A program made the translations under genes and the position numbers. A stretch of 64,000 nucleotides of DNA from Porphyrobacter sp. AAP82 (GTDB taxonomy: Bacteria > Pseudomonadota > Alphaproteobacteria > Sphingomonadales > Sphingomonadaceae): positions 124,001 through 188,000 of the forward strand of contig NZ_ANFX01000012.1 in assembly GCF_000331285.1 (NCBI RefSeq), in the 5' to 3' direction. Below are positions 7,604 to 58,479 of the stretch, piece after piece. Position 1 is the stretch's first letter, and each line of letters starts with the position of its first letter. The notes under the pieces are model-generated. The model saw only the letters and a list, made by a program, of their open reading frames with translations, did no database searches and was not told the DNA's origin.

Positions 7604-10180
<2,577 letters not shown>

Positions 10181-10266
10181 CGCGGGCGCACGCCGCCTTC
10201 GCCCTGTTCCTCTCGCCGCCAGATTGGCTATAGGTGTCGGTCACGGACAGATCCGGGAGAGCGACA

Positions 10267-10809
10267 ATGGCGAATTGGACAAAGGCGGCCGCAGTGCTGG
10301 CGGCAGTGGCGACAGTGACGGCAGCGGTGCCGGCGGCGGCGCAGAAGAAGGAAGCGCCTCCGCTGCCCGAGGTCTTCGCCAAGGTTCTCGATTGCCGCGC
10401 AATCGCCGATCCGGCGCAGCGCCTCGCGTGCTTCGATGCCGCCGTGCCCGCTCTTGCCGAGGCGCAGGAGAGCAAGGAACTGCGCGTCGTCAGCCGCGAG
10501 GACGTGAACCGCACCCGCCGCGGCCTGTTCGGCTTCGTCGGCTCGGGCTTCGGCATCTTCGGCGATGACGAGGACGAGGCCGAGAAGGAAGAGATCAAGG
10601 AAATCACCGCGGTGATCAAGGCGGTCTCGGGATCGGCGGGAACCTACGTCTTCACGCTCGATGACGGGTCGGTGTGGGCGCAGTCGGACGAAACCTACCT
10701 CAAGAAGCCGCAAGCCGGAAAGTCGATCACCATCCGCCGCGCCGCGCTCGGCAGCTTCATGGCGAGCGTCGAGGGCGGGCTCGGCTTCAGGATCAGGCGC
10801 CGGAACTGA
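10267..10809 (+). CDS. Exported protein of unknown function (180 aa)
   Basis: Residues 1-25 form a signal peptide (Ala/Val-rich core ending AAAQ), so the product should be periplasmic. It then shows VLDCRAIADPAQRLACFDAA, a two-cysteine motif of the C-x-x-I-x-D-x-x-R-L-x-C-[FY]-D type seen in several alphaproteobacterial exported proteins; the two Cys could form a disulfide. A highly acidic stretch (GDDEDEAEKEEIKE) precedes a C-terminal beta-rich part with GTYVFTLDDGSVWAQ. GGGAG precedes the ATG at 10267 by 7 bases. The next gene begins 15 bases downstream, suggesting an operon with the TPR-oxygenase. The biochemical role is unknown. Confidence 0.8.
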   Translation: MANWTKAAAVLAAVATVTAAVPAAAQKKEAPPLPEVFAKVLDCRAIADPAQRLACFDAAVPALAEAQESKELRVVSREDVNRTRRGLFGFVGSGFGIFGDDEDEAEKEEIKEITAVIKAVSGSAGTYVFTLDDGSVWAQSDETYLKKPQAGKSITIRRAALGSFMASVEGGLGFRIRRRN

Positions 10810-10824
10810 TCCGGCCCTATCCGC

Positions 10825-12618
10825 GTGACGACCGGCGCAAGCGTCCTGTCCTCGATCCATGCGAGGCTGCAATCGGGCGATGTCGCGGGCGCGGCCCGGG
10901 CGATCGCCGATGTCGTGCGCGCCGAACCGGCCAACGGCGCGGCCTGGCAGCTGGCGGGCATCATCCGGCGCCGCGCCAAGGATGCCGCCGGCGCGGTCGA
11001 AGCCTTCGGCCGCGCGCTTGCCGCAGGGGTGCGCAGCGCCGAGGTCTACAACAGCCTCGCCCTCTCGCTCGAGGATCTGGGCAGGGCGGAGGAGGCGGCA
11101 GCGGCCTATGAACAGGCCTTTGCCTGCGATCCGGCCTACCTGCCGGCGCGGATCAATGCTGCCAGGCTTGCAGCAGCTCAGGGCGATCTGGCGGGGGCGG
11201 AGGCGGCGCTGCGCGCGGTGCTTGCCGAGCAGCCCGGCGCGGTCACTGTCAGCAACGCGCTCGGCGCGCTTTATGCCGAGGCGGGCGAACCGGGCAAGGC
11301 GGCGGCGCAATACCGCCAGTCGATCGCGGCCGTCCCCGGCAACCTCGCCGCCACGATCCGGCTCGGCCTGGCGCTGCGCGAGGATGGCCGCGCCGAGGAG
11401 GCGCTCGCCCATTTCCGCGCGCTCGCGGGGCGCTTCCCGCGCGCGCCCGAATTCGCCGATGCGATGGCCGGCGCGCTGATCGAATGCGGCCACGTCGCCG
11501 AGGCCGAAGCCCTGCTCGAGAGGACGGTGGAACAGTCCCCCGACTACTTCCCCGCGCATCGCGGGCTCGCCCGGCTCGCCCATGAGTATGGCACCGGCAA
11601 GGATCCCTACCGCAGCTATCGCGCGCTGGCGGAGCGCTGGCCGGGCGAGGCGGCGATCTGGCATAGCTGGACCGGGCTGATGCTCGACCGGCGCGATTAT
11701 GCCGGGGTGCTGGGGGCGGTGGCGGGCGCGCGCCGTGCGCTGGGCGGACTTCCTGAGCTCGACCTCTACGAGGCGATAGCGCGCAGCGAGCAGGGCGAGG
11801 GCACGGCTGCCGAAGCGCTGTTCGCGCGCGCCGCGCCGCGGCTCGGGGGCACGGTGCTGGTGCCGCGCGCCCGCAATGCGCTGCGCCGGGGCGAACCGGC
11901 GCAGGCCGAGGCGCTCGCGGCCGAAGCGACGCGGGCCGATCCCGCCGACCGCTTCGCCTGGGCCTATCGCGGCCTGGCCTGGCGGCTGCTCGACGACCCG
12001 CGCGAATTCTGGCTCCACGATTACGACCGGCATGTCGAACAGCGTGCGGTGGCCTACCTGTCGGACCCGGGCGCGCTCGACGAACTGCGCGAGACGCTGC
12101 GGGGGCTGCACCGCGCGCAGGCTCACCCTTCCGAACAGAGCCTGCGCGGGGGCACGCAGACCGAGGGCAATCTCTTCAACCGCTCCGATCCGGTGCTGCG
12201 CCGTCTGCGCGAGGCGATCCGCGAGCAGGTGGCGGCCTATCTTGCCCGCTTCGATGGGGCAGCCGATCACCCCTGCGCCGGCTATGCCGGCGCGCGCTTC
12301 GGCTTCGAGGGGTCATGGTCGGTGCGGCTGATGGGGGAGGGCTTCCACATTGCCCATATCCACCCCGCAGGCGCGATCAGTTCGGCGCTGCATGTCAGCG
12401 TGCCGCCGCTCGGCGCCGAGGACGGGCGCGATGCGGGCGCGCTGGTGCTGGGCGAACCGCCGGCCGAGCTTGGCCTTGGCCTGGGCCCGCGGCGCGTGGT
12501 GACCCCGATCGAGGGCGCGCTGGTGCTGTTCCCGTCATCGATGTGGCATGGCACCAAGCCTTTCAGGCTGCATGCCGAGCGCATGACGGTGGCCTTCGAT
12601 GTGGCGGTGAGGCGCTGA
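10825..12618 (+). CDS. TPR repeat protein with C-terminal putative 2OG-Fe(II) oxygenase domain
   Basis: The first 370 residues consist of about ten tetratricopeptide-like helical pairs (for example AWQLAGIIRRRAKDAAGAVEAF), a protein-binding scaffold. The C-terminal 200 residues match the putative 2-oxoglutarate/Fe(II) oxygenase family PF13759: SWSVRL, then FHIAHIHPAGAISSALHV with candidate iron ligands H508, H511 and H513, and a distal His575 in FPSSMWHGT. Such fusions may hydroxylate a protein partner, but no substrate is known. The GTG start at 10825 directly follows the preceding stop; no upstream in-frame alternative exists. No signal peptide, so cytoplasmic. It ends 112 bases from the convergent TonB-dependent receptor gene. 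Confidence 0.85.
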   Translation: MTTGASVLSSIHARLQSGDVAGAARAIADVVRAEPANGAAWQLAGIIRRRAKDAAGAVEAFGRALAAGVRSAEVYNSLALSLEDLGRAEEAAAAYEQAFACDPAYLPARINAARLAAAQGDLAGAEAALRAVLAEQPGAVTVSNALGALYAEAGEPGKAAAQYRQSIAAVPGNLAATIRLGLALREDGRAEEALAHFRALAGRFPRAPEFADAMAGALIECGHVAEAEALLERTVEQSPDYFPAHRGLARLAHEYGTGKDPYRSYRALAERWPGEAAIWHSWTGLMLDRRDYAGVLGAVAGARRALGGLPELDLYEAIARSEQGEGTAAEALFARAAPRLGGTVLVPRARNALRRGEPAQAEALAAEATRADPADRFAWAYRGLAWRLLDDPREFWLHDYDRHVEQRAVAYLSDPGALDELRETLRGLHRAQAHPSEQSLRGGTQTEGNLFNRSDPVLRRLREAIREQVAAYLARFDGAADHPCAGYAGARFGFEGSWSVRLMGEGFHIAHIHPAGAISSALHVSVPPLGAEDGRDAGALVLGEPPAELGLGLGPRRVVTPIEGALVLFPSSMWHGTKPFRLHAERMTVAFDVAVRR

Positions 12619-12675
12619 GGCGCTGACTGCCTGGCGCCCCGGGCGGGGCGCTCATTTCCCGACGGCACAAAAGAA

Positions 12676-12705
12676 AAGGGCGGCTGGCCGAAGCCAACCG
12701 CCCTT
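12676..12705 (-). terminator. Rho-independent terminator of the TonB-dependent receptor gene
   Basis: AAGGGCGG pairs with CCGCCCTT around an inner TGGC/GCCA stem with a CGAA loop. On the minus strand the hairpin is followed by TTTTCTTTTG. It lies 25 bases past the receptor stop and between convergent genes, so may serve both. Confidence 0.8.
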
Positions 12706-12730
12706 CCCCCGTTGCTTGTTCAGCCGTCGC

Positions 12731-15691
12731 TTAGAACGTGACGGTCGCCTGGACGGTGAAGGTCCGGCCGAGGATCAGCGGCGAGAAGAACGACACGTTG
12801 GTGTTCGCCTGCTCGAAGGTGCCGGTCGCGGTCTGTTCCGGATATTCGTCCAGCACGTTGTTGATGATGCCGGTGAGCGAGAACTTGTCGCTGACGTCGT
12901 AACGCAGCGAAAGGTCGACCACATGCAGGTCAGGCACGCGCGGCGTGAAGAAGCCGGCGTCGGCTTCGTTACCGAACAGGTTGCCCGACTGGTCACCACC
13001 GCTCTTGTAGACCCAGCGGACCTGGCCGCTGAAGCGCTCCTGACGGTAGAGGACCTGGAGGGTCGAGGCCCATTCCGAGGTGATCGCGCCGAGACCCGCG
13101 TCAGCGGTGTCGACGAACTCGGTGCCCGCAACATTGTACGAGTCGACCCAGGTCAGCAGTTCCTGAATGCTCAGGTTGCCTGCGAACAGCGGGAACGACC
13201 AGTTCAGACCAAGGTCGATACCCGAGGTCTTGAGGTCGGTGTCGCCGTTCACCAGCGTGGTGTTGACCGAGATCACCTGGCCATCGACCGCGCTACGCAC
13301 GATACGGTCGCAGGCCGTGAGGAGCTGCTGACCGTAGCACTGGTTAAGGAAGAACTGCGCGCCCTGACCGGCAATACGGTTCGACAGGGTGATGTCGTAG
13401 TAGTCGACGGTCAGCGAGAAGTTGCCGATCGGGAAATCGCTGGGAGCGATCACCGCACCGACGGTGAAGGTTTCGGCCTGTTCTTCCGACAGGTTCGGGT
13501 TGCCGAAGGCGAAGGCCTGAACCTGCGAGTTGTTCTGGGCGAAGCCCGTCACCAGGGTCGGGTTGGCACCGTAGCGGGTGAACTGCGCCTGGCAGAACGC
13601 GGTGTTGCGCGAACCGTTGATCTGGTTGCAGGGATCGCTGTAGCCCGGGAAGCCCTGGTCACCGTTCTGGAACAGTTCGAACACCGAAGGCGCACGCGCC
13701 GCCTTGTTGTAGGTCCCGCGGAAACGGATCAGCTCGATCGGAGCGAATTCGACGGCGAACTTGTAGTTGAACAGGTTGCCGACCGACGAGTAGTCCGAAT
13801 AGCGCGCACCGGCTTCGACGGCGAGGAGGTCGGGGAAGCCGTCACCGCCGAGCAGCGGGAGACGGATTTCGCCGTAGACTTCCTTGACGTTGATCGAACC
13901 GGCAATCGGCTGCTGTGCGTTGAAGCCGATGATTTCACCGCGCTTCTTGGCATCGTCGGGCACCGAGGTACCGGTGTCCTTGCGGTATTCCGCACCGACC
14001 GCGATCCCGGCCGGACCGCCGGGCAGTTCGAACAGCGTGCCGGTCAGGTTGACGGCGGCACGGATCTGCTCGAATTCCGAGAAGTCGTAGGTGTCGGTCT
14101 GGAGGAACTTCACCATCGTCGGGGTGAGGGTGTCACGACCGAAGATGTCGATGGGGACGCAGCCCGGGAGGATGCCGGGGCCGTTCAGAACGCCCGAGGC
14201 ATTGCGGCAGCCGCGCAGACCCTGGTTGGCCGCAACGCTGTTGATGTTGCCGACCGAGTAGGTGTCGAAATCGGTGCGGCCGTAGCTCGCCACCGCGCTC
14301 ACGTTCCAGTCCTTGGACAGTTCGTGGTTGAGGATGGCGCGCAGCTGGACCTGCTGCGATTCGTTGGTGCCGATACGCGGACCGGTTTCACCGAAGCGAC
14401 GGTTGAACGAGAAGTCCGCAGTCGGGTTCGGACGGGTGGCGAGAGCCGCGGCGAGGTCCGCCGGGATCAGCGGCGAGGTCACCGGAATGACGAAGCCGGT
14501 GCCGCCCGCAGCCGGGGTCGGCGCGAGGTTCACGACCGAGGTGGTCTTGGCGTAGCTGGCGAACAGCTTGGCCGAGGTCTTGTCCGAGAACTCGTAGCTG
14601 CCGATCGTCGAGATGTTCAGACGGTCGAACGGAATCAGAAGGTAGTTCTGATCCGCGAAGCTGTAACGCGACGAGTTGCCGACCGGGATCTGGCAGCGGC
14701 CGCCGGTGCTGCTGGGACGCAGGTTGCCGTTGGCATCGAACGACAGGCTGCCGCCGTTGACGGTGGTGCCGGCGGTGGCCGGGTTACAGTCGTTGTCGAA
14801 GTTGGTGAAGTTGGTGCCAACGCCCGGGGTGGTCGACAGGTTGCGGAACGGGTTGTTCGCGTTGTTGACCACGGTGCCGAAGGGGTTGGTGCCCGAACCG
14901 CCGGCGAAGATCACCGCGCCGCTGGCGCCGAGATCGGCCGGATCGTCGATCACGCGCAGCACGCCGTCGACCACGCCGAGCGCGCCCGAGGTGCGCGAGT
15001 AGTCGTAACGGCCCTGGCCGACCGGATCACGGTCGTAGTACTGCACGGCGACCGCGATGTTGCCGCGGCCTTCGTCGAAGTTGCCGCCGAACACGCCCTG
15101 GACCGCGAAGTTGTAGCCCGTGCCATCCTGCGAGATTTCGTTCTGCGCGGTCAGCTCGAGACCTTCGTAGTCGTCCTTGAGCACGAAGTTGATGACGCCG
15201 GCGATGGCGTCCGAACCGTACACCGCGGTCGCACCGCCGGTCACGACGTCGACGCGCTTGATGAGCGCGGTCGGGATCTGCGAGATGTCGATCGCACCGG
15301 TGGTCGAGGACGGAGCGATACGCTCGCCGTCAACCAGGATCAGGGTGCGGTTCGGGCCGAGGCCGCGCAGGTCGAGGGTCGCGAAGGCTTCACCGCCCGA
15401 GTTGTTCGACGTGCGGTTGTTGCCCGGGATGACCTGGGGCAGATCGTTGATCAGCTCTTCCAGGGTCAGGGTGCCGGTGAGGCTGATGGTCTCGCCGGTA
15501 ACCGAGGCAACCGGGCTCGCCGATTCGAGGTCCGGACGCGCGATGCGCGAACCGGTCACCAGGATGGCGCCGGTGTCTTCGGCGGCCTCTTCGGATTCGG
15601 TCTGGTCCTGCGCGAAGGCAGGGACGGCGGCGAGCATCAGACCGAGCGCGATCGGTGCAGTGCCAGCCTTCAGGATCGAAGTCTTTCTCAT
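12731..15691 (-). CDS. TonB-dependent outer membrane receptor
   Basis: Outer-membrane active-transport channel of 986 residues powered by TonB-ExbBD. A Sec signal peptide (residues 1-27, ending AFAQ) precedes an acidic linker and a TonB-box-like ILVTGSRI near residue 43. The plug domain follows, with LRGLGPNRTLILVDGERI and RVDVVTGGATAVYGSDAIAGVINF, then a 22-strand barrel with the terminal aromatic (VQATVTF). Extracellular loops hold several Cys pairs (DNDCNP/GGRCQ; NQCYGQQLLTACDR). This is the large sphingomonad-type receptor class; cargo cannot be assigned, although nearby thiolase, dehydrogenase and hydratase genes suggest an organic substrate. A shared TGTTGCA element lies 174-191 bases upstream. 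Confidence 0.96.
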   Translation of the reverse strand: MRKTSILKAGTAPIALGLMLAAVPAFAQDQTESEEAAEDTGAILVTGSRIARPDLESASPVASVTGETISLTGTLTLEELINDLPQVIPGNNRTSNNSGGEAFATLDLRGLGPNRTLILVDGERIAPSSTTGAIDISQIPTALIKRVDVVTGGATAVYGSDAIAGVINFVLKDDYEGLELTAQNEISQDGTGYNFAVQGVFGGNFDEGRGNIAVAVQYYDRDPVGQGRYDYSRTSGALGVVDGVLRVIDDPADLGASGAVIFAGGSGTNPFGTVVNNANNPFRNLSTTPGVGTNFTNFDNDCNPATAGTTVNGGSLSFDANGNLRPSSTGGRCQIPVGNSSRYSFADQNYLLIPFDRLNISTIGSYEFSDKTSAKLFASYAKTTSVVNLAPTPAAGGTGFVIPVTSPLIPADLAAALATRPNPTADFSFNRRFGETGPRIGTNESQQVQLRAILNHELSKDWNVSAVASYGRTDFDTYSVGNINSVAANQGLRGCRNASGVLNGPGILPGCVPIDIFGRDTLTPTMVKFLQTDTYDFSEFEQIRAAVNLTGTLFELPGGPAGIAVGAEYRKDTGTSVPDDAKKRGEIIGFNAQQPIAGSINVKEVYGEIRLPLLGGDGFPDLLAVEAGARYSDYSSVGNLFNYKFAVEFAPIELIRFRGTYNKAARAPSVFELFQNGDQGFPGYSDPCNQINGSRNTAFCQAQFTRYGANPTLVTGFAQNNSQVQAFAFGNPNLSEEQAETFTVGAVIAPSDFPIGNFSLTVDYYDITLSNRIAGQGAQFFLNQCYGQQLLTACDRIVRSAVDGQVISVNTTLVNGDTDLKTSGIDLGLNWSFPLFAGNLSIQELLTWVDSYNVAGTEFVDTADAGLGAITSEWASTLQVLYRQERFSGQVRWVYKSGGDQSGNLFGNEADAGFFTPRVPDLHVVDLSLRYDVSDKFSLTGIINNVLDEYPEQTATGTFEQANTNVSFFSPLILGRTFTVQATVTF

Positions 15692-50300: not shown

Positions 50301-51620
50301 GGCGAGAGGGTGATGCGCGGCCGGCTGGGTGCACGGCTCGCCTTCGATGGCGCGGCCGAGACCCTCTGGCGCCTCGCCGCGGTCGAGGCCTTCGACCTTG
50401 CCGGCCCCGTCAGGATCGATGCCCGCGCCACCGGCACGCTCGCCGATCCGCGCATCACCGGCAATGTCGCCAGCGACGATCTCACCGTGCAAAGCGCGCT
50501 CACCGGCACCCGAATCACCGGCGTCAAGGCGCGCGGACGGTTCGCCGGATCGCGGCTCGAACTGGCGAGCTTTGCCGGGCAGACCGGCGGCGGGGGCACG
50601 GTGAGCGGCAGCGGCACGGTTGACCTTGCGCAGATGAGCCGTGCGCGCGGCCCCACGCTGGATCTGCGCGCGGCGGTGAGGAACGCGCGGCTGCTTGATG
50701 CCAATGGGCTCGAGGCGACCATCACCGGCCCCTTGCGGATCGTCTCCAACGGCATGGGCGGCACCATCGCCGGCCGCGTGAGCGTCGATCGTGCACGCTG
50801 GGCGCCGGGCAACGCCGCCGAGGACCGCGCCCTGCCGCGCATCGCCACGCGCGAGATCAATGGCGAGGACGGGCGCACACGGGCGCAAGGCTCGGGCCGC
50901 GACGCGGCGTGGCGCTACCTCGTCAACGCCAGCGCCCCGGCGCGCGTCACGGTCGAGGGGCTGGGACTGGAGAGCGAATGGGGCATCGACATTGCCTTGC
51001 GCGGCACCGTCGCCGACCCGCGCATCGGCGGCACCGCGCGGCTGGTGCGCGGCGATTACACCTTCGCCGGCACGCGCTTCGATCTGAACCGCGGGCGGAT
51101 CCTGTTCGACGTGGGCGAGGCGATCAACCCGCGGCTCGACATCCTCGCCGAAACCGCCAAGAACGGCACCAATGTCGATATCGCGATCACCGGCAATGCC
51201 CGCTCGCCGAGCATCACCTTCTCGAGCGATCCCTCGCTTCCCGAGGAGGAAATCCTCGCGCGGCTGCTGTTCGGCGGTTCGGTCACCTCGCTCTCGGCAA
51301 CCGATGCCGTCCAGCTCGCCGCAGCGCTGGCCGCACTACAGGGCGGGGGCGGGGGGCCCGACCCGATCGGCTCGCTGCGGCGCACGATCGGGCTCGACCA
51401 GCTGCGGATCGTCAGCGCCGACCCGCTGACCGGGCGGCAGACAGGGATCGCGATCGGCAAGAACATCACCCGGCAGATCTATGTCGAACTGGTCACCGAC
51501 GGGCGCGGATACAGCGCGACCCAGGTCGAATACCGCATCACCAGCTGGCTGGCGCTGCTGGGCACGGTCTCGACCATCGGGCGCGATTCGGTGCTGGTCC
51601 AGGTGAGTAGGGATTACTGA
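47376..51620 (+). CDS. tamB: Translocation and assembly module protein TamB
   Basis: AsmA-like inner-membrane-anchored bridge protein, 1414 residues. An N-terminal helix (LGWAFGLLLAPVLLVALLLATPIG, about 29-52) is followed by a long beta-taco repeat region that spans the periplasm and a C-terminal DUF490 domain (DYTFAGTRFDLNRGRILFDVGEAINPRLDI...SITFSSDPSLPEEEILARLLFGG). With TamA it helps insert outer-membrane proteins and move lipids. The first ATG overlaps the tamA stop; a 15-base tandem repeat places a second in-frame ATG at 47391, which could also serve. It converges on the lysozyme gene 21 bases away. Confidence 0.95.
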   Translation: MADGLMADGAQGTATARARREAGRRWGRWLGWAFGLLLAPVLLVALLLATPIGKRFVADQIAAVAPASGLRFTVGRIEGDIYGQAVLRQVTVSDPKGAFLTIPEVRLDWRPVNWLWSGLDIREVTARRGRLTRLPELLPGDPDAPLLPDFDIRVDKLVVEDLTIAKGLATPRDERANLSAKVDIRQGRALIDARGRLGARDRFALLLDAEPDGDRFVLSGDALAPAGGVLAGLAKLEAGYAARIAGDGTWTRWRGAAVARAIGSAADRPVAALRITNDAGRYGVLGELRAGLGDATIAARALGETTALAASFTLSGSVIDGRAAAVSTGLDARLSGLADLADKVVDGARVRLGLRNPDLFGPNLRLERAALVADLTGDFDDLGIKHEIAVGRLAVQSVTATGLAQTGRARLDGAVLSLPLALTAQAVTTGIAQADPRLVKGRASGLLTYDFAKGALAADRADITFPGLGAQLSLQGDIPAGAYAIAGPVTASRLRVEGAGEVTANAKILAKFGPAVPWSLRANLAGVLGRIGNATIVNLAGNEVRFKGELGMGAGQPIIFRNTAITAPRLTARLDSKVVTGGGVTRTVLAGQGRQAQYGPFRFDAEIAADGPRAVLVLADPYPAAGLKDVRIALALSKERFGLDVEGQSLLGAFDGALELFLPENAPTRIAVGRLDVYRTTVTGEVMLLDAGVSGDLRLAGGGVDGTLVFRPQGKGVIGFAVDLAARNASFGGATPITIARADIDATGRIADGSTSLDADITASGFEYGGLSLANLTARAAITDGRGKVTGTLSGRRADRFALNFDANVAPDQIAAAARGQYGNARITMPRRAVLTAQEAGGGWSLAPTQVGFGGGFAIAQGSFGGGTTALNLQLSKMPLRLLDLAGADLGLGGRLTGIIDYRQSGRDAPTAKARGRIERFSRAGLVLSSKPVGVLAVVDLGADRLTAAARLFEGEERRGDVSLAVLGLAPDGPLGERVMRGRLGARLAFDGAAETLWRLAAVEAFDLAGPVRIDARATGTLADPRITGNVASDDLTVQSALTGTRITGVKARGRFAGSRLELASFAGQTGGGGTVSGSGTVDLAQMSRARGPTLDLRAAVRNARLLDANGLEATITGPLRIVSNGMGGTIAGRVSVDRARWAPGNAAEDRALPRIATREINGEDGRTRAQGSGRDAAWRYLVNASAPARVTVEGLGLESEWGIDIALRGTVADPRIGGTARLVRGDYTFAGTRFDLNRGRILFDVGEAINPRLDILAETAKNGTNVDIAITGNARSPSITFSSDPSLPEEEILARLLFGGSVTSLSATDAVQLAAALAALQGGGGGPDPIGSLRRTIGLDQLRIVSADPLTGRQTGIAIGKNITRQIYVELVTDGRGYSATQVEYRITSWLALLGTVSTIGRDSVLVQVSRDY

Positions 51621-51641
51621 GGAGGTGCGGCCCCGCCAGCC

Positions 51642-52208
51642 CTAGCCGCCCTCGCTCATGTACAGTTCCGCCTCCGCGGCGCGGCGGCGCACCAGCCCCT
51701 GCAACACCCGCCCGCCCGCGCGCGTCCAGCGCGAGAATTCGTGCGCGGCGCCCGCGTAATCGCCCGCGATGTGCTTGCGGGTCAGCGTCGCGGTGCGGAT
51801 CGCGCCGGTGTTGTAGTGGAAGCTGACCATCGCATCGAACTGGCTCTGGGTGGTGAGCGCGGGGCCGATCGCCTCGGCGACATCGGCGGCATAGCGGACC
51901 AGATCGGCAGCAAGGCGCGAATCGCATTGCGCCTGCGTCCAGCGCGTGCCGGGGCCGATCCACGAGCCGTTGAAGAAATCGCGCCCGGTCGCGCCCCAGC
52001 CGATCGTCCACGGCTCGTCGCCGGTGGCGGGATCGGGATAGGCCTCGACGGTGCCGTCACCGCACAGGCGCGCGCAGCCCTCGAAACGCTTGATGAGCGC
52101 GATGCCCGCCGCGCCGACATTGCGGCTGGACGAGGCACGCAGATTGGCGGGCAGGCCGGCAAGCTCGCGCAGATAGGCGATCAGCTTGGTCGAATGCGGG
52201 TAGGTCAT
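51642..52208 (-). CDS. Phage-type lysozyme (GH24 endolysin)
   Basis: Muramidase of 188 residues with the P21/P22-endolysin pattern: IALIKRFEG with catalytic Glu43, AYPDPATGDEPWTIGWGATG with the second acid Asp59 and the Thr-Gly loop, FDAMVSFHYNTGAI, and the end RVLQGLVRRRAAEAELY. Between Glu43 and the Asp is an insert with Cys45 and Cys49 that is longer than in T4-like enzymes. No signal peptide or SAR helix is visible, so export would need a holin or damage. The ATG at 52208 follows AGAGG. It diverges from the XRE regulator across a region with three phased palindromes. No phage structural genes are near. Confidence 0.88.
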   Translation of the reverse strand: MTYPHSTKLIAYLRELAGLPANLRASSSRNVGAAGIALIKRFEGCARLCGDGTVEAYPDPATGDEPWTIGWGATGRDFFNGSWIGPGTRWTQAQCDSRLAADLVRYAADVAEAIGPALTTQSQFDAMVSFHYNTGAIRTATLTRKHIAGDYAGAAHEFSRWTRAGGRVLQGLVRRRAAEAELYMSEGG

Positions 52209-52303
52209 GGAGAGCCTCTTCTTGCGTGAAGTGAGGCCCGACGATTCAGCACGTTTCTTGCGAGTAGGAAAATGGTTTCGTGCAGCGCGAGGCACGGGGG
52301 TGA

Positions 52304-52349
52304 CAAGAGCTCTTGACTGACAAGAGTTCTTGTCTGTAAAGAGCTCTTG
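52304..52349. promoter_or_regulatory. Array of three 12-bp palindromic operators, 17-bp period
   Basis: CAAGAGCTCTTG (52304-52315, perfect palindrome), CAAGAGTTCTTG (52321-52332) and AAAGAGCTCTTG (52338-52349). Start-to-start spacing is 17 bp in both steps. The sites cover the -35, spacer and -10 of the best promoter candidate for the XRE gene, 63 bases upstream of its ATG. Cooperative binding by the XRE protein and negative autoregulation are the natural reading. Whether the array also controls the divergent lysozyme gene is inference. Confidence 0.8.
52313..52340 (+). promoter_or_regulatory. Putative promoter of the XRE-membrane protein operon
   Basis: TTGACT (52313-52318) and TGTAAA (52335-52340) with a 16-base spacer. 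The first palindrome overlaps the -35, the second lies in the spacer and the third overlaps the -10. No equally good promoter for the lysozyme gene is visible on the minus strand. Confidence 0.45.
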
Positions 52350-52411
52350 TCAGGAAACGGGGCGATTCGGAACAATCCCTGCTCCGGGGCCGGAATGCGA
52401 ACCATCAACAG

Positions 52412-52633
52412 ATGTCGGAAGCGAACGTGGAAAACCGTCTGAAACACTACCGCGACGAAAAGGGCTGGAGCCAGGGCGAGCTTGCCCGGCGGCTTGGCGT
52501 GTCGCGGCAGACGATCAACGCGGTCGAGACCGACAAGTACGATCCCTCGCTCCCCCTCGCGCTGCGCATGGCGCGCCTGTTCGGGGTGGCGGTGCCGGAT
52601 CTGTTCATCGATCACTGGGAGCCTGTAGAATGA
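52412..52633 (+). CDS. XRE/Cro-type HTH transcriptional regulator (73 aa)
   Basis: Minimal HTH_3 protein: NRLKHYRDEKGWSQGELARRLGVSRQTINAVETDKYDPSLPLALRMARLFGVAVPDLF, with recognition helix at SRQTINAVE. There is no sensing domain, so regulation must come through a partner. It overlaps the membrane protein gene by 4 bases (ATGA), the usual arrangement for small regulators of this subgroup with a membrane protein. It probably binds the upstream palindromes. The ATG at 52412 has only a weak purine stretch before it. Confidence 0.92.
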   Translation: MSEANVENRLKHYRDEKGWSQGELARRLGVSRQTINAVETDKYDPSLPLALRMARLFGVAVPDLFIDHWEPVE

Positions 52634-53301
52634 TGACCGAGGAAAAGTCCCCCGAGACCCCGCGCACCCAGACCCCGAAATGGGTCAGGAAGCTGCTGAT
52701 CCCGATGCTGATCGGGGGCGTTGCGGGCTATGCCGGCGCTGCCGCGGCGCTGCATTTCATCGACAGTTCGGCCGTTGGCGGGCTCGGCAAATCGGCGACC
52801 ATCGCCGCGCTGGTGGCGGTGCTCTACATCATCATCGGCCTCGGCGTCGCGCTGGGCACGGCGAGCCCCAAGGTCGGCGCGCGGTTCCTCAATGTCGAGG
52901 ATGCGGACGAACTGCGCGAACAGAAGAAGGTCCTGACCGGTTCGGGCGCGGCGATGGTGCTGTGGGGTGCGGCGCTGATGGCGCTGGCCTTTGCGGCCCC
53001 CGACGGCCCGCTGCCGCAGGCTGCGGCGCTGGCGCTGGGCGCGGGCGGGCTGGTGATCGGCACGCTGCTCTCGATCCCGGCCTACCGGCTGAGCGACGAG
53101 CTGATGCGCGCGGTCAACCTCGAGGCGGGCGCGCTAAGCTACGGGCTGATGCTGCTGTTTGCCGGCGGCTGGGCGATGTTCGCGCACCTCGGCTATGTCG
53201 CCGGGCCCGCGCCGCTCGACCTGCTGTCGCTGTTCTATGTTGTGGTGCTGGTGGCAAGCTTCATCGCCGTCGGCCGCCGCGGGATGCTGATGCCGCGCTG
53301 A
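52630..53301 (+). CDS. Six-helix membrane protein, partner of the XRE regulator
   Basis: A 223-residue integral membrane protein of unknown function. Predicted helices are about 22-43, 56-77, 101-121, 126-148, 165-188 and 193-213. Between helices 2 and 3 is a cytoplasmic loop, KVGARFLNVEDADELREQKKVL, with charged residues that could contact the regulator. The coding start ATGA overlaps the XRE stop. A terminator 20 bases after its stop closes the operon. The pairing of a ligand-free XRE protein with a membrane protein suggests that the membrane protein senses or sequesters; that is inference. Confidence 0.8.
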   Translation: MMTEEKSPETPRTQTPKWVRKLLIPMLIGGVAGYAGAAAALHFIDSSAVGGLGKSATIAALVAVLYIIIGLGVALGTASPKVGARFLNVEDADELREQKKVLTGSGAAMVLWGAALMALAFAAPDGPLPQAAALALGAGGLVIGTLLSIPAYRLSDELMRAVNLEAGALSYGLMLLFAGGWAMFAHLGYVAGPAPLDLLSLFYVVVLVASFIAVGRRGMLMPR

Positions 53302-53321
53302 CCCCCGGGGACGCGCAAGAA

Positions 53322-53357
53322 AAAAGGGGCGCCTGCCGGCTGGCAGGCGCCCCTTTT
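53322..53357. terminator. Bidirectional Rho-independent terminator
   Basis: A 16-bp perfect stem, AAAAGGGGCGCCTGCC paired with its complement, around a GGCT loop; A-run on the left and T-run on the right. It separates the convergent membrane protein gene and autotransporter gene and can act on both strands. Confidence 0.92.
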
Positions 53358-53377
53358 CGTTGGGTGTGCCGGCGGCC

Positions 53378-56300
53378 TCAGAACTTCCAGGTCGCGGTGC
53401 CGCGGATCACCTGCGCATTGGCATCGGCGCGGGCGATCGTCGAATCGAGCGCGGCGCTGATCTGCACCGGCCCTGTGCCGAAGGTGGCGCTCACGCCCAC
53501 TTCGCCCCAGGTCCGGTCGGCCGTGCCGAGCGCGAAGGCCGCGTCCGGGCCCGTGCCGCTGGTGAAGTTGGCGTTGAGCACGTTCGGACCCTGCTCGAGC
53601 TCGCGCACCAGCTGGGCGTTGGCATTGAGCACCACCGACTTGCCCTTCTTCTGCCAATCGAAACCAGCGCGCAGCTGCGTGCTCTTGTAGGTTTCGCGGT
53701 CGAAGCTCAATGCCAGCGTTCCGCCGCTTTCCTTGGTGCGGGTGAAGGCGATGCTGGCATAGCGCGCCTCGATCCCCGGGGAGATCGTGCCGGCCGAGGT
53801 TTCCAGATCATAGGAGACGCCAAGCGCGCCCGAGACCAGCAGGTCGTCAGAACTGGATTCGAGCGTCTGCGGCGCGTTCAGGAAGGTCACGGTGCGGCGC
53901 GTGTCGATGCCCACGCTGCCCATGCTGAACTGGCCGTCGACTGCAACGCCGCTGGCGAAATCGTGACGCATGTAGAGCGAGGCCGCATAGGTGTCGCTCT
54001 GGATGCTCTGGCCCAGCGGCACGTCGGCGTCGATCGTGCTGTAGTGGCCCGAAATGCCGATCATCGTGCTGTCGCCCGGGTAGAACTCGGCCCCGCCGGC
54101 CAGATACCAGCCCGAATACTCGGTCGGATCGGCGAGGAACTGCCCGGCGATCTGGTTGCCGGCTTCGTAGCCCGGAAGCGAAACTGCCTCGCCCGAGATG
54201 TAGCCGCCCGACAGGAACAGGCCGACATTGTCGGGCAGGTCCGCATCGTGCAGCTCGGTCTCGCCGTCGCCTTCCTGCATGCCCATCAGCGCCCCGCCCA
54301 TCGGCTGCATGGCGGGCGCGAGCCCGGCCTGGGCCATTTCGAGCGGACGCCCGGTGATCGCCACCTTGCCCCCGGCGCGCGACTTGTCGGCCTCGCGCAG
54401 GCGGGCATCGTTGAAGTTTTGCAGCAGGTTGACCGATTGCGCCGCGAGCGAGCGGACCGCCTGCTCGTTGACCGGCGCAAGCCGCGCGAAGGTGCCGCGG
54501 ATCGTGTCGACCGTCGCGAAGTCAAGCCCGTAGAGCGCGCTCAGCGAGGTGTTGGCGCGGTTCTGGTCGAACAGCTGGGCATAGGCGACCTGGGCCGGAT
54601 CATTGGCGTTGATCACCGTATTGTAGCTCGCCGCGTTGACCTCCATCAGCACCGCATTGGGCTGGTAGATGAAGTTCTGGCTGAGGATCGGCGAGATCGT
54701 GCGCGCGGTGAAGGTGCCGCTCACCCCGCCCGTGGCGGTGAGGATGGTGTAGCGCTCGCCGAGGCCGTTGACGCGCGAGCTCACCCCGGTGCCGATGCCC
54801 ACCACGCCGCCGACACTGGCCTGCCCGGTGACCGCGAGGCGATCGGAGGCGGTGCCGGTGCCGAGGTCGACGAGGAAGGTCGAGCCCGAGGACATCACCA
54901 GGTTGCCATCGATCGTCAGCGTGCCGGCGGTGCCCATCGTCGCGGGCGAGAAGACGCCGGTGACGCTGGTCAGGAACGGCGCGCGGACCGTGCCGGTTCC
55001 GCCCAGCATGCCGGCGAACAGGGTGTAGTCGCCGACCGAGGCAAGCCGGCCATTGACGTTTACCGTCCCGCCGAACTGGCTGACGTCGATCAGCGAGGTG
55101 AGGTTGCCCGCGGCAGCGACGCTGAGCCCGGCAGCGCCGCGCACCGTCAGCCGGTCGATGGTGACCGTGCTGGACAGGGTGGTGGTGCCGGTCTGGCTCA
55201 GGGTCACATCGAAGAAGCGCGGGTCGACGCGGGTCGTCGGCGTGGTCACCGCGTTGACGTTGTTGGCGACAAAGCCGGTCGCGCCGGGCAGGCCGTTGGC
55301 GAGCGTCGGGGCGGGCAGGGTGACGGCGTTCGCCTGCGGGGCGACTTCCGACACCAGCGCCGTGCGCGGGCCGGTGGTCGTGGTGGTTGCAGCGCCTTCG
55401 CCGGTGCCGGCAGTGGCGAGATTGAAGGTCGCACCGATCCCGCCGACATCTTCGAGCGAGACTTGCGCACGGCCATTGGTCATGTTGCCGGCTGTGTTCT
55501 GCGAAGGCGGACGGGTGTCGATGAAGTTGCCGGTCGCCTGGTCGACGCAGCCGTCACCGGGAGCTTCGAACTCGACGCAGATCGCGCCGAAATCGCCGCC
55601 GGTCCCGTTCGGGCCGAGCTCGGGCGTGGTGGGCAGGCCGTTGACGACCTGGCCTTGCGCGTTGATCACGCGGTAGGCCGGGTCCAGCAGTGTCACCCAG
55701 CGGGTCGAATCTTCCCAGTTACCGTCGCCGGCGGTGGTGCCGACATAGCGGTAGGGGTTGGTCGCGGCGATATACTGCCAGTAAAGCGAGAGCGGCTGGT
55801 AGAAGCTGGTCGTCCCGATCGAGCTGAACGCCTGGCCGCCGAAGAAGCGCGAACCGCCCGACAGCACGCCGATCACCAGATCCTCGTTCGAGAGCCGGTT
55901 GTTCGCCGCATCGAGGATCAGCGGACCGCCCGAATCCCCGCCGGCGGTGGTGCCTTCGTTGGGCAGGGCATTATCGCGGTGAACGTTGATGTCGCGGGAC
56001 GGCACGCGGTTCTGCGAATCGAAGTCGAGCTGGTAGAGGTTCTGCGGGAAGGTATCGGGCCCGGGGCCGAACAGGACATTGTCCTGGTCATCGAGCGAGA
56101 AGAACCCGCCGAGCATGTTCTCGGCCGCGCGGCGGCGGAAGTCGATGCCGTTGATGGGGCCCTGGGTCGCATTGCCCGAAGCGCCGTAGCCGGTGATGTT
56201 GACGTGGTAACCGGTGCCGCGCACCGGATCGCTGGTCGCAGGGGTCGGCAGGGTGCTGAACAGCAGCGCCCAGGTCGGGATGCCGACCGCCGGGGTATCG

Positions 56301-56764
56301 AGCGCGGCGAGCGCGATGTCGGCCTCGATGAAGCCGAGCCCGCCCGCGTCCTGCAACGAGCGCTGGTCGTAGAACACGCGGCTGATGTTGTAGACGGCAA
56401 GGTTCGGGTTCGAACGGAAGTTGTTGGCGAACCAGTTCTGGAAGCCGGGCAGCGCGTTGACGTTGAACGAGAAGGCGGCGGCGATGTTGGCGGCGTTGTA
56501 GGCCTCCTCGGGCACGTCGTTGACGCAGTGCGCGGCGAAGATGACGGTGCGCGGGTTGATCAGCGTGCCGGTGCACACGAACCCGTCGGCGCGGAAGAAC
56601 ATGCCGACGCCGCGGAACTTGTCAGGGGTGTCGACGATATCGGCGCGGGTCTTGGTCTCGTTGGGAACCACGGCGTGGGCCGGGGTGGCGAGAGCGGCGA
56701 TCGACAGGGCGGCAAGGGCCGTGCCCGCCAGAAACTGGCGGCGCGGAGCGGACAACGTCTTCAT
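53378..56764 (-). CDS. Autotransporter serine protease with trypsin-like passenger domain
   Basis: A 1128-residue type V secretion protein. Residues 1-31 look like a twin-arginine signal (APRRQFLAGTALAAL...AHA). The trypsin-like domain (about 45-350) has the full triad: His79 in IFAAHC, Asp149 in EADIALAALD and Ser278 in TAGGDSGGP. A linker and a beta-helix passenger follow (TLTIDGNLVMSSGSTFLVDLG repeats of autotransporter type), then a C-terminal 12-strand barrel (about 840-1128) ending in TATWKF. It would be displayed on or released from the cell surface and may process surface proteins. GGAGAG precedes the ATG at 56764. A TGTTGCA element lies 107-125 bases upstream. Confidence 0.92.
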   Translation of the reverse strand: MKTLSAPRRQFLAGTALAALSIAALATPAHAVVPNETKTRADIVDTPDKFRGVGMFFRADGFVCTGTLINPRTVIFAAHCVNDVPEEAYNAANIAAAFSFNVNALPGFQNWFANNFRSNPNLAVYNISRVFYDQRSLQDAGGLGFIEADIALAALDTPAVGIPTWALLFSTLPTPATSDPVRGTGYHVNITGYGASGNATQGPINGIDFRRRAAENMLGGFFSLDDQDNVLFGPGPDTFPQNLYQLDFDSQNRVPSRDINVHRDNALPNEGTTAGGDSGGPLILDAANNRLSNEDLVIGVLSGGSRFFGGQAFSSIGTTSFYQPLSLYWQYIAATNPYRYVGTTAGDGNWEDSTRWVTLLDPAYRVINAQGQVVNGLPTTPELGPNGTGGDFGAICVEFEAPGDGCVDQATGNFIDTRPPSQNTAGNMTNGRAQVSLEDVGGIGATFNLATAGTGEGAATTTTTGPRTALVSEVAPQANAVTLPAPTLANGLPGATGFVANNVNAVTTPTTRVDPRFFDVTLSQTGTTTLSSTVTIDRLTVRGAAGLSVAAAGNLTSLIDVSQFGGTVNVNGRLASVGDYTLFAGMLGGTGTVRAPFLTSVTGVFSPATMGTAGTLTIDGNLVMSSGSTFLVDLGTGTASDRLAVTGQASVGGVVGIGTGVSSRVNGLGERYTILTATGGVSGTFTARTISPILSQNFIYQPNAVLMEVNAASYNTVINANDPAQVAYAQLFDQNRANTSLSALYGLDFATVDTIRGTFARLAPVNEQAVRSLAAQSVNLLQNFNDARLREADKSRAGGKVAITGRPLEMAQAGLAPAMQPMGGALMGMQEGDGETELHDADLPDNVGLFLSGGYISGEAVSLPGYEAGNQIAGQFLADPTEYSGWYLAGGAEFYPGDSTMIGISGHYSTIDADVPLGQSIQSDTYAASLYMRHDFASGVAVDGQFSMGSVGIDTRRTVTFLNAPQTLESSSDDLLVSGALGVSYDLETSAGTISPGIEARYASIAFTRTKESGGTLALSFDRETYKSTQLRAGFDWQKKGKSVVLNANAQLVRELEQGPNVLNANFTSGTGPDAAFALGTADRTWGEVGVSATFGTGPVQISAALDSTIARADANAQVIRGTATWKF

Positions 56765-56870
56765 GGGCGTTCTCTCCATTGGGATTCGGTCGTGGGATCG
56801 ACCGTCTGATGGCAGTCTAACGGCGCACAAGAGCTTCCGACAATTGCGGTTCGCCAGCTGTGGCTGCAAA

Positions 56871-56897
56871 TGTGTCCCACTGTTGCAATAATGTGTC
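56871..56897. promoter_or_regulatory. TGTGTC...TGTTGCAAT...TGTGTC element
   Basis: Two direct copies of TGTGTC (56871-56876 and 56892-56897) flank TGTTGCAAT (56881-56889). The same combination, with closer spacing, precedes the TonB-dependent receptor gene. Position fits a promoter-proximal regulatory site for the autotransporter. Confidence 0.35.
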
Positions 56898-57013
56898 AGC
56901 GCCGCAATGTGCAGCCGGATGCGTGGCAGGTGTTGGCGCCTGGGGGCCGCGCGCGCGGACCGGCTGCGGCAGCGCACGCCTGCCAACCCCGGCGGGCGGG
57001 AAAGTCCAAGCAA

Positions 57014-57046
57014 AAGGGGCGGGAGGATCGCTCCTCCCGCCCCCTT
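57014..57046 (-). terminator. Rho-independent terminator of glnA
   Basis: AAGGGGCGGGAGGA pairs with TCCTCCCG-CCCCCTT (one bulged C) around a TCGC loop. On the minus strand it is followed by TTTTGCTTGG, 23 bases after the glnA stop. Confidence 0.85.
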
Positions 57047-57069
57047 GTGACGCATTCGGCCGGGCCGGA

Positions 57070-58479
57070 TTACATCGAGTAGTACATGTCGAATTCGACC
57101 GGGCACGGCGTGGTTTCGGTGCGGATCACCTCTTCCCACTTCAGTTCCATGTAGGCTTCGATCTGGTCCTTGGTGAACACGTCGCCCTTGAGCAGGAATT
57201 CGTGATCGGCAGCCAGCGAGTCCAGCGCTTCACGCAAGCTGCCGCACACGGTCGGCACCTCGGCGAGTTCGGCCGGGGGCAGATCGTAGAGGTTCTTGTC
57301 CATCGCCTCGCCCGGGTGGATCTTGTTCTCGATCCCGTCGAGGCCCGCCATCAGCAGCGCCGAATAGGCAAGGTAGGGATTGGCGAGCGCATCGGGGAAG
57401 CGGAATTCGACGCGCTTGGCCTTTTCGCCGGCACCGTAGGGAATACGGCACGAGGCCGAACGGTTGCGCGCCGAATAGGCCAGCAGCACCGGCGCCTCGA
57501 AGCCCGGCACCAGACGCTTGTAGCTGTTGGTGGTCGGGTTGGTGAAGGCGTTCAGGGCCTTGGCGTGCTTGATGACGCCGCCGATGTAGTAGAGGCACAT
57601 TTCCGACAGGCCGGCATATTCGTTGCCCGCAAACAGCGGCTTGCCGTCCTTCCAGATCGACATGTGGGTGTGCATGCCCGAGCCGTTATCGGCCTTGATC
57701 GGCTTGGGCATGAAGGTCGCGGTCTTGCCATAGGCATGGGCGACCTGGTGCACGACATACTTGTAGATCTGCATGCGGTCGGCGGTCTGCACCAGCGTGC
57801 CGAAGGTCAGGCCGAGCTCGTGCTGGGCAGCGGCGACTTCGTGGTGGTGCTTGTCGCAGGGCAGGCCCATTTCGAGCATGGTGGAGACCATCTCGCCGCG
57901 GATGTCGACCGCAGAATCGACCGGCGCGACGGGGAAGTAGCCGCCCTTGGCGCGCGGACGGTGGGCGAGGTTGCCGCTGTCATATTCCTTGGCGGTGTTG
58001 GTCGGCAGTTCGATATCGTCGATCGAGAAGCCCGAGCCGGCATAGCCGTCCTCGAAGCGCACGTCGTCGAACATGAAGAACTCGGCCTCGGGGCCGACAT
58101 AGACGGTGTCGCCAAGGCCGGTCGACTTCAGGTAGGCTTCGGCGCGCTTGGCGGTGGTGCGCGGGTCGCGCGCATACCAGTCACCGGTCGAAGGCTCGAC
58201 GATGTCGCAGTTGATGATCAGCATCGGCGTGGCGCTGAAGGGATCGACCCAGGTTTCGGTGAGGTCGGGCTTCAGGATCATGTCGGATTCGTTGATCGCC
58301 TTCCAGCCGGCGATCGACGAGCCGTCGAACATCAGGCCGTCCTCGAGCTCGTCCTCACCCATCACGCCGGCGACCATGGTGAGGTGCTGCCACTTGCCCT
58401 TGGGATCGGTGAAGCGCAGATCGACCCACTCGATTTCCTCGTCCTTGATCTTCTTCAGGACGTCTTTTGCTTTCGACAT
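57070..58479 (-). CDS. glnA: Type I glutamine synthetase
   Basis: Dodecameric GSI, 469 residues, ligating ammonia to glutamate. DGSSIAGWK is the latch region, [10 protein letters not shown] holds the first metal ligands, [10 protein letters not shown] and [22 protein letters not shown] the substrate site, and the adenylylation target Tyr398 lies in NLYDLPP, so activity is likely controlled by GlnE. It lies 64 bases after glnB and shares its nitrogen-responsive promoter region; a strong terminator follows. Confidence 0.98.

Follow-up and report, generated by a model that had tools for sequence, protein, structure and literature searches.

On the whole, our analysis shows that the unit studied here is an operon of an XRE regulator and a membrane protein, which has the anatomy of self-regulation, occurs in sphingomonads of the Erythrobacter lineage, and is not a lysozyme switch. 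As read from the sequences, the operon is probably autoregulated and self-contained, with the membrane protein tuning the XRE protein, and the neighbouring lysozyme gene would be separate from it, maybe influenced. The window, by which we mean the whole stretch of 64 kb analysed, comes from contig NZ_ANFX01000012.1 of Porphyrobacter sp. AAP82, with an assembly of 2.9 Mb.

Organization of the locus

The features discussed below are as follows, in the coordinates of the window.

51642 to 52208, minus strand: gene for a GH24 lysozyme of 188 aa (PF00959, E 7e-33); a tamB neighbour and core gene, not an obligate member of the unit
52244 to 52272, minus strand: promoter-like motif of the lysozyme gene, TTTTCC-17-CTGAAT; the genus form is TTTTCCTAC-N12-TGCCTAAT
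52301 to 52318, plus strand: operator box 1; its right half is the proposed -35 TTGACT (52313-52318) of the XRE operon
52318 to 52335, plus strand: operator box 2, within the spacer of the proposed promoter
52335 to 52352, plus strand: operator box 3; its left half is the proposed -10, either GTAAAG at 52336-52341 (spacing 17) or TAAAGA (spacing 18)
52427 to 52633, plus strand: gene for the CylR2-like XRE/HTH_3 regulator, 68 aa from GTG 52427, or 73 aa if ATG 52412 is the start
52630 to 53301, plus strand: gene for the six-helix membrane protein of 223 aa, overlapping the XRE gene by 4 bp
53322 to 53357, no strand assigned: perfect inverted repeat of 16 bp with A/T ends and a loop of 4 bases; folding energy as RNA -34.2 kcal/mol (z -4.6)

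The lysozyme gene, which starts at ATG 52208 on the minus strand, scores 114.1 bits against PF00959 (cut-off 22.3) and matches the endolysin-type phrog_7 (E 6.5e-49). The earlier note on this DNA was right in describing it as a GH24 lysozyme free of phage neighbours: tamA and tamB (PF01103, PF04357) lie on one side, and beyond the XRE pair come an autotransporter gene and then a glutamine synthetase-like gene (the latter named by eye), none of which is a phage gene. The 4-base overlap of the XRE and membrane protein genes that it had reported is likewise found, as ATGA at 52630-52633. Around the lysozyme genes of the genus the standing order is tamA, tamB, lysozyme, [XRE, membrane protein], [autotransporter], glutamine synthetase-like gene. 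The hairpin at 53322-53357 is possibly a two-way terminator for the operon and the convergent autotransporter gene; the terminator scan does not list it. The autotransporter itself (53378-57139) carries a trypsin-like domain, is convergent to the operon over this strong hairpin, and is present in some relatives, not in all.

Distribution of the XRE pair and the lysozyme gene

The membrane protein is found in 30 of 100 genomes (the window's own included), all of them in the genus of the window, namely 29 of the 60 genomes G001-G060 plus the own genome. The lysozyme is found in 64 of the 100, including 57 of the same 60 at E <=1e-50, and 28 of these 57 genus genomes have it without the XRE pair. 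A scan of genome contigs gave 89 confirmed loci with names such as Erythrobacter, Aurantiacibacter, Qipengyuania, Sphingopyxis, Sphingorhabdus and others, 80 of which are listed; in all 80 the XRE gene lies directly 5' of the membrane protein gene, and 53 of the 80 have a lysozyme gene within the fetched flank. An XRE orthologue occurs in 33 further genomes, two of them of the same genus; a membrane protein homologue is recognised in 32 of these, and at E 1e-10 a lysozyme orthologue is missing from 18.

Within the genus, the lysozyme gene is usually found divergent from the XRE gene and adjacent to it, at less than 900 bp in 24 of 28 loci and at more than 1.1 kb in the remaining four. The pair lies on the same side of the lysozyme in the 28 scored genus loci; an exception is G261, one of the 33 further genomes, where the lysozyme is present but far from the XRE gene. 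At the other side, the distance from tamB to the lysozyme is below 500 bp in 25 of 26 loci with the XRE gene and in 23 of 24 without it. Mapping the presence of the pair on a tamB tree of 51 loci with the lysozyme takes 11 changes, of which no fewer than 10 are forced by well-supported branches; the rows of this tree were picked for having the lysozyme, and therefore the retention of the lysozyme rests on the count of 57 of 60. From the tamB adjacency together with the gains and losses on the tamB tree, we take the lysozyme to be the resident and the XRE pair to come and go, and the pair to be dispensable since it is often gained or lost. The 57-locus lysozyme counts omit L088 (the displaced XRE pair of G028) and L099 (the second lysozyme of G038), and score G028 as being without the XRE gene.

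The lysozyme also keeps a promoter-like motif of its own. The form TTTTCCTAC-N12-TGCCTAAT occurs at no more than 4 of 17 mismatches in 26 of 28 loci with the XRE gene and 26 of 29 without it, and in 0 of 57 shuffled sequences; it was derived from the same loci on which it is counted. The proposal that the lysozyme is part of the unit is not supported, as the gene is much more widespread than the membrane protein gene in the 60 genomes, lies beside tamB either way, and keeps its motif regardless. The expected co-occurrence in relatives holds for the XRE gene, the membrane protein gene and the palindromes, which go together, and not for the lysozyme, which is independent of them (57 against 29 of 60). 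The opposite expectation, that the lysozyme is unlinked in relatives, is also true in part: it is absent or unlinked in many, as in the 18 of 33 further genomes, but usually adjacent within the genus.

Some further observations concern the lysozyme gene. A second near-copy of its promoter motif, with 2 mismatches, is present in the own genome (L193, 1501-1529; G000:C23:18345) and is followed at about 1645 of L193 by CTGGACAGTGTCTCATGTGTCTCCAACA, which in many relatives is within the N-terminal coding part of the lysozyme; a search of the own genome for a second lysozyme found none. By eye, the N-terminal region of the lysozyme shows variable direct repeats GTGTCTCATGTGTCTCC, GTGTTCCATGTGTTCC and GTGCTCCATGTGCTCC in many relatives (L061-L119), two copies of which often change together, and the window's lysozyme is without them. 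Gene transfer agent lysis was considered and rejected, the BgtA model NF058676 being matched with 88.5 bits where its equivalog cut-off is 315, and the marker DUF2460 being absent from the own genome. This marker is found in 17 of 45 same-genus relatives examined, including G015, a genome without the lysozyme.

The operator array and its proposed embedded promoter

The three palindromes CAAGAGCTCTTG reported before are present as described, exact at 52304-52315 and with one mismatch each at 52321-52332 and 52338-52349, in an exact 17-bp period. The count of the 12-mer by itself is not significant and is weak evidence: at up to 2 mismatches in the 64 kb, at least 3 matches occur in 24 of 100 shuffles. 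The relatives give a longer form, TGWMAAGAGNTCTTKWCA, from which the operator unit is put at about 18 bp with boxes at 52301, 52318 and 52335, and at up to 2 mismatches the whole 2.9-Mb assembly holds these three boxes only, the reversed-pattern control giving 0. A search for a wider XRE regulon in the own genome, with CAAGAGNTCTTG at 1 mismatch, yields 15 matches against 36 for the reversed control, and the XRE operon is the sole strong candidate target found in this genome.

The array follows the gene pair. Among the genomes G001-G060, an operator site with up to 1 mismatch is found in 29 of 29 with the membrane protein gene and in 1 of 31 without it, the lone site (G018) being isolated and with one mismatch. 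Of the 80 loci listed (89 confirmed), 78 have one box or more within 170 bp of the XRE gene, and 58 have three boxes at the 17/17 period by a hand count of the table; 14 of the 80, in the range L254-L273, lack the middle operator, with 33 or 34 bp from one outer box to the other. The two-box loci include several of Sphingopyxis and Sphingorhabdus. Two of the 80 are without a recognisable box near the XRE gene, L213 and L246; L213 is on the same contig as L088, and other genes sit between its boxes and its XRE gene. In G035, where the pair is about 2.3 kb from the lysozyme, the boxes stay with the XRE gene, and the exception is G028, where they are near the lysozyme with the XRE gene about 14 kb off. 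Judged from these sequences, the three palindromes form what appears to be a conserved operator array tied to the XRE-membrane protein gene pair. The genes between the boxes and the XRE gene in G028 (L087, about 7800-14001) resemble by eye the early region of a Mu-type phage. In G320 an isolated operator-like site (L277, 5201) lies about 2.2 kb upstream of the XRE array.

The half-sites were compared in the 61 distinct three-box arrays that 102 of the 143 upstream regions yielded. Two of the six halves are fixed, TTGACT at the right of box 1 (97-100% per base) and GTAAAG at the left of box 3 (98-100% per base); the other four occur in two alternating forms, TGAC-AAG and TGTA-AAG, at ratios from 54:43 to 87:13. 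The two fixed halves, 17 bp apart, look like the -35 (TTGACT) and the -10 (GTAAAG) of the XRE promoter. This would account for the imperfect look of two of the palindromes, whose deviations from symmetry are conserved, probably as promoter bases, and with the promoter inside the operators, repression of the own promoter would be the natural reading of this anatomy. A consensus scan for sigma-70 promoters over 51500-53600 lists one promoter only, at 52347-52376 directly after box 3, and does not list the proposed -35/-10 pair. This promoter could not be general, since many relatives have just 16-19 bases between the end of box 3 and the XRE start, but it may operate in this genome. Of the statement that the palindromes lie over the best promoter, it is their place over the own promoter region that stands, by anatomy and conservation; the promoter of the scan follows box 3.

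The regulator and its membrane protein partner

The XRE protein matches HTH_3 (PF01381) at E 2.1e-16 and with 60.2 bits, above the curated cut-off of 23. Its best solved relative is a PbsX-family regulator (PDB 9k3w, E 1.8e-18), and it aligns with CylR2 (PDB 1utx) over residues 3-66 at E 1.8e-12. It had been put at 73 aa; the gene is indeed a small XRE gene, but its start is probably GTG 52427, giving 68 aa, and not ATG 52412, because the relatives align only from V/L-ENRLK. The picture of a small XRE protein whose own promoter region is covered by three phased palindromes is borne out by anatomy, by conservation and by the linkage of the boxes to the membrane protein gene. The own genome has a second CylR2-like XRE gene, L281 (G000:C8:82381-82572), with a 4-bp overlap with the gene for a membrane protein of 151 aa; among 8 other similar XRE genes of the taxonomic order, scored on the downstream side, two (L281, L282) overlap a downstream membrane protein gene.

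The six helices suggested earlier for the membrane protein are supported by an AlphaFold2 model (pLDDT 93.1), which has six long helices. The even loops and both ends are richer in K/R than the odd loops. In 71 homologues the most conserved regions are loop 2, the C-terminus and loop 4 (entropy 0.85, 1.27 and 1.46 bits, respectively), with the motifs LNVEDADELREQ, RRGM and SDEL in this order, all on the K/R-rich side, which from its composition is probably cytoplasmic. The protein has no accepted Pfam, NCBIfam or PHROG family, with no PHROG match at E 0.1, and its model has no clear match in a Foldseek search against the PDB (best E 0.4); by VIA-align the best Z is 9.2, with rhodopsins, in the range expected for helical bundles. 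Since there is neither an accepted family nor a clear PDB fold, a sensing role is something we infer for this protein. DUF3169 (PF11368) was tried and rejected, the window's protein scoring 13.9 bits against a gathering cut-off of 31.6.

Spacing between the lysozyme promoter and the array

The distance from the lysozyme -35 to box 1, taken in 33 spacer clusters, falls in classes of 10-16, 23-30, 36-40, 47-50 and 59-61 bp, with centres near 12, 26, 38, 48 and 60 bp, and its period statistic peaks at 11 bp; period and bins were first chosen after inspection of the data. Clustering with the motif kept in gives 16 clusters and a jitter p of 0.01. Mapped on a protein tree of 57 loci, a weak one with 15 of 54 inner branches well supported, the spacing class has changed 21 times or more. 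The pair test takes tree-independent pairs whose spacings are 6-27 bp apart: in 14 of 17 the difference is 11 ± 2 or 22 ± 2 bp (null 45%, p 0.002), against 5 of 9 for the leader control. When the pairing was randomised 40 times, this share came to 0.79, and three control distances gave 0.52, 0.31 and 0.55. With the two last loci added, the pair test gives 12 of 17 (p 0.03), its best score being reached by 5 jittered sets out of 300. Stepping by 11 bp is absent from the distances between box 1 and the lysozyme ATG, between the lysozyme -35 and the ATG, and between box 3 and the XRE start. On tip values, simulated drift reached the observed value in 0-8% of 300 runs, depending on the setting, and the leader control did as well there (statistic 0.63 against 0.62, jitter p 0.002), so the tip-value tests are set aside and the pair test alone counts.

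The spacing classes were also stated in advance for new loci. Four of the five scorable ones agree (27, 24, 28 and 48 bp) and one does not (35 bp, a two-box array), an agreement near what chance could give with about 55% of values being allowed. The first prediction covered ten genomes, of which G307, G310, G311, G327 and G330 are taken as already measured, G313 and G323 are unscorable, and three are new. For the second, six genomes were matched, of which G000, G166 and G221 had been measured earlier, G513 has the spacer of L244, and G413 and G510 are new. Loci that lack a three-box array or the GTAGGAAA motif are unscorable, among them L277, L278, L297 and L300; L303, with two boxes 34 bp apart, fails the three-box rule and yet is in the last pair test. 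The later tests omit distances above 100 bp (164, 209 and 234), and, as the genome set and the set of named loci overlap, distinct sequences are counted once.

If the lysozyme start is set at about 6-7 bases past the -10, the centre of box 1 comes near -47, -61, -73, -84 or -95; the last four resemble class I activator positions. The stepwise spacing is an exploratory lead. It hints at contact of the operator complex with the lysozyme promoter in loci with abutting promoters, and contacts between divergent polymerases would explain the phasing equally well.

Proposed mechanism and alternative explanations

In the mechanism that we favour for the self-contained operon, XRE dimers would bind the three adjacent 18-bp operators at their 17-bp period, and the bound protein would cover the -35, the spacer and the -10, so that both genes are shut off, as the anatomy suggests; the XRE protein could also be an activator. 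The membrane protein, made from the same transcript and with its most conserved parts predicted to face the cytoplasm, would be the signal-side partner, which would most likely bind or release the XRE protein by the state of the envelope, with no phosphorelay, as proposed for CylR1/CylR2. The lysozyme would be a separate core gene, and where the promoters abut, the operator complex may act on it from the same helix face.

Closer coupling to the lysozyme can be thought of in two ways. The lysozyme, the XRE protein and the membrane protein could form one switch, in which the XRE complex on the operators would act on the lysozyme promoter itself, following a wall or envelope signal that reaches it through the membrane protein. 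In favour of this are the divergent adjacency within 900 bp in most genus loci and the spacing classes, with 14 of 17 independent pairs near 11 or 22 bp and four of five new loci in agreement. We regard it as a doubtful explanation, as the period and bins are post hoc, the pair test falls to 12 of 17 with two more loci on a weak tree, and phasing could run from polymerase to polymerase; moreover, about half of the lysozyme genomes in the genus (28 of 57) lack the pair, many further XRE genomes lack the lysozyme, and 4 of 28 loci have the two more than 1.1 kb apart. A joint version, in which an undescribed six-helix family holds or releases a CylR2-like repressor on the three-operator promoter and the same complex, staying on one helix face, sets the output of the resident lysozyme, by cis capture where the genes abut, seems unlikely to us.

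A toxin-antitoxin-like pair, with a harmful membrane protein and the XRE protein as its repressor, would share the overlapping genes, the anatomy of autorepression and the patchy distribution with many gains and losses, and the regulator does match antitoxin-type HTH models of HipB/Y4mF (best E 9e-11, below cut-off). These matches are generic, however, and the pair keeps to one side of the lysozyme in the 28 scored genus loci (G261 excepted), the XRE protein is 83-97% identical across genus loci, and the cytoplasmic loops of the membrane protein are kept, which makes this explanation improbable. The suggestion that the membrane protein acts as a holin, within a domesticated phage lysis cassette with the lysozyme, is the least credible and largely refuted by the distribution: the two genes occur independently, with 18 of the 33 further XRE genomes free of the lysozyme, their promoter-like motifs are separate, and the membrane protein is without a PHROG match. 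What speaks for such a cassette is the endolysin-type lysozyme of phrog_7 and a holin model touched weakly by 5 of the 71 membrane protein homologues (best E 0.0017), and we hold it to be very improbable.

Relation to known systems and significance

The nearest likeness is to CylR2 of Enterococcus faecalis (PDB 1utx, 2xiu), an XRE protein of 66 aa sharing a C-terminal W-x-P. As far as the excerpted text of PMC3709268 goes, CylR1/CylR2 also has a partner gene for a suspected membrane protein, CylR1, which is needed for induction, with no phosphorelay proposed, and its regulator genes diverge from another operon with overlapping promoters; the route from CylR1 to CylR2 without phosphorylation is there said to be not understood. 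The same excerpts describe CylR1 with three predicted helices, against six in the model here, and CylR2 as controlling a divergent lantibiotic operon, whereas here the divergent genes are the lysozyme and then tamB and tamA. In addition, and unlike in CylR2, the regulator here has three operators, within which its own promoter is proposed to lie. A similar pair in a Bacillus lantibiotic cluster is reported in a preprint (PMC11343131).

Other relatives are more distant. DUF3169 membrane proteins match weakly in 8 of the 71 homologues (best E 5.6e-4), with the window's protein below cut-off. GH24 endolysins and BgtA share the lysozyme domain, the gene here having tamA and tamB as neighbours and no phage genes. 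The closest solved relatives of the XRE protein, the PbsX-type small regulators (9k3w), have partner membrane proteins of another kind; the YozG/YoaS pairing of Bacillus is found among these PbsX-type regulators. No description of the XRE-membrane protein unit or its operator was found in the literature, among the matches listed. The locus is a new six-helix variant of the CylR2-like pair of XRE and membrane protein, probably self-regulated through a promoter that lies within three operators, with the lysozyme outside the unit but possibly a cis target.

The unit would be a compact, single-target version of CylR1/CylR2-like signalling with a sharply defined operator. It comes with many natural presence/absence pairs in environmental hosts that are easy to handle in the laboratory, its embedded promoter would offer a clean readout, and the stepwise distance between array and lysozyme promoter makes for a concrete prediction, which together make it a readily testable case of the poorly understood transfer of signals from membrane to gene in bacteria. 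If the cis capture of the lysozyme is true, a wall-cutting enzyme would stand under a phosphorelay-free envelope switch of sphingomonads where the genes abut.
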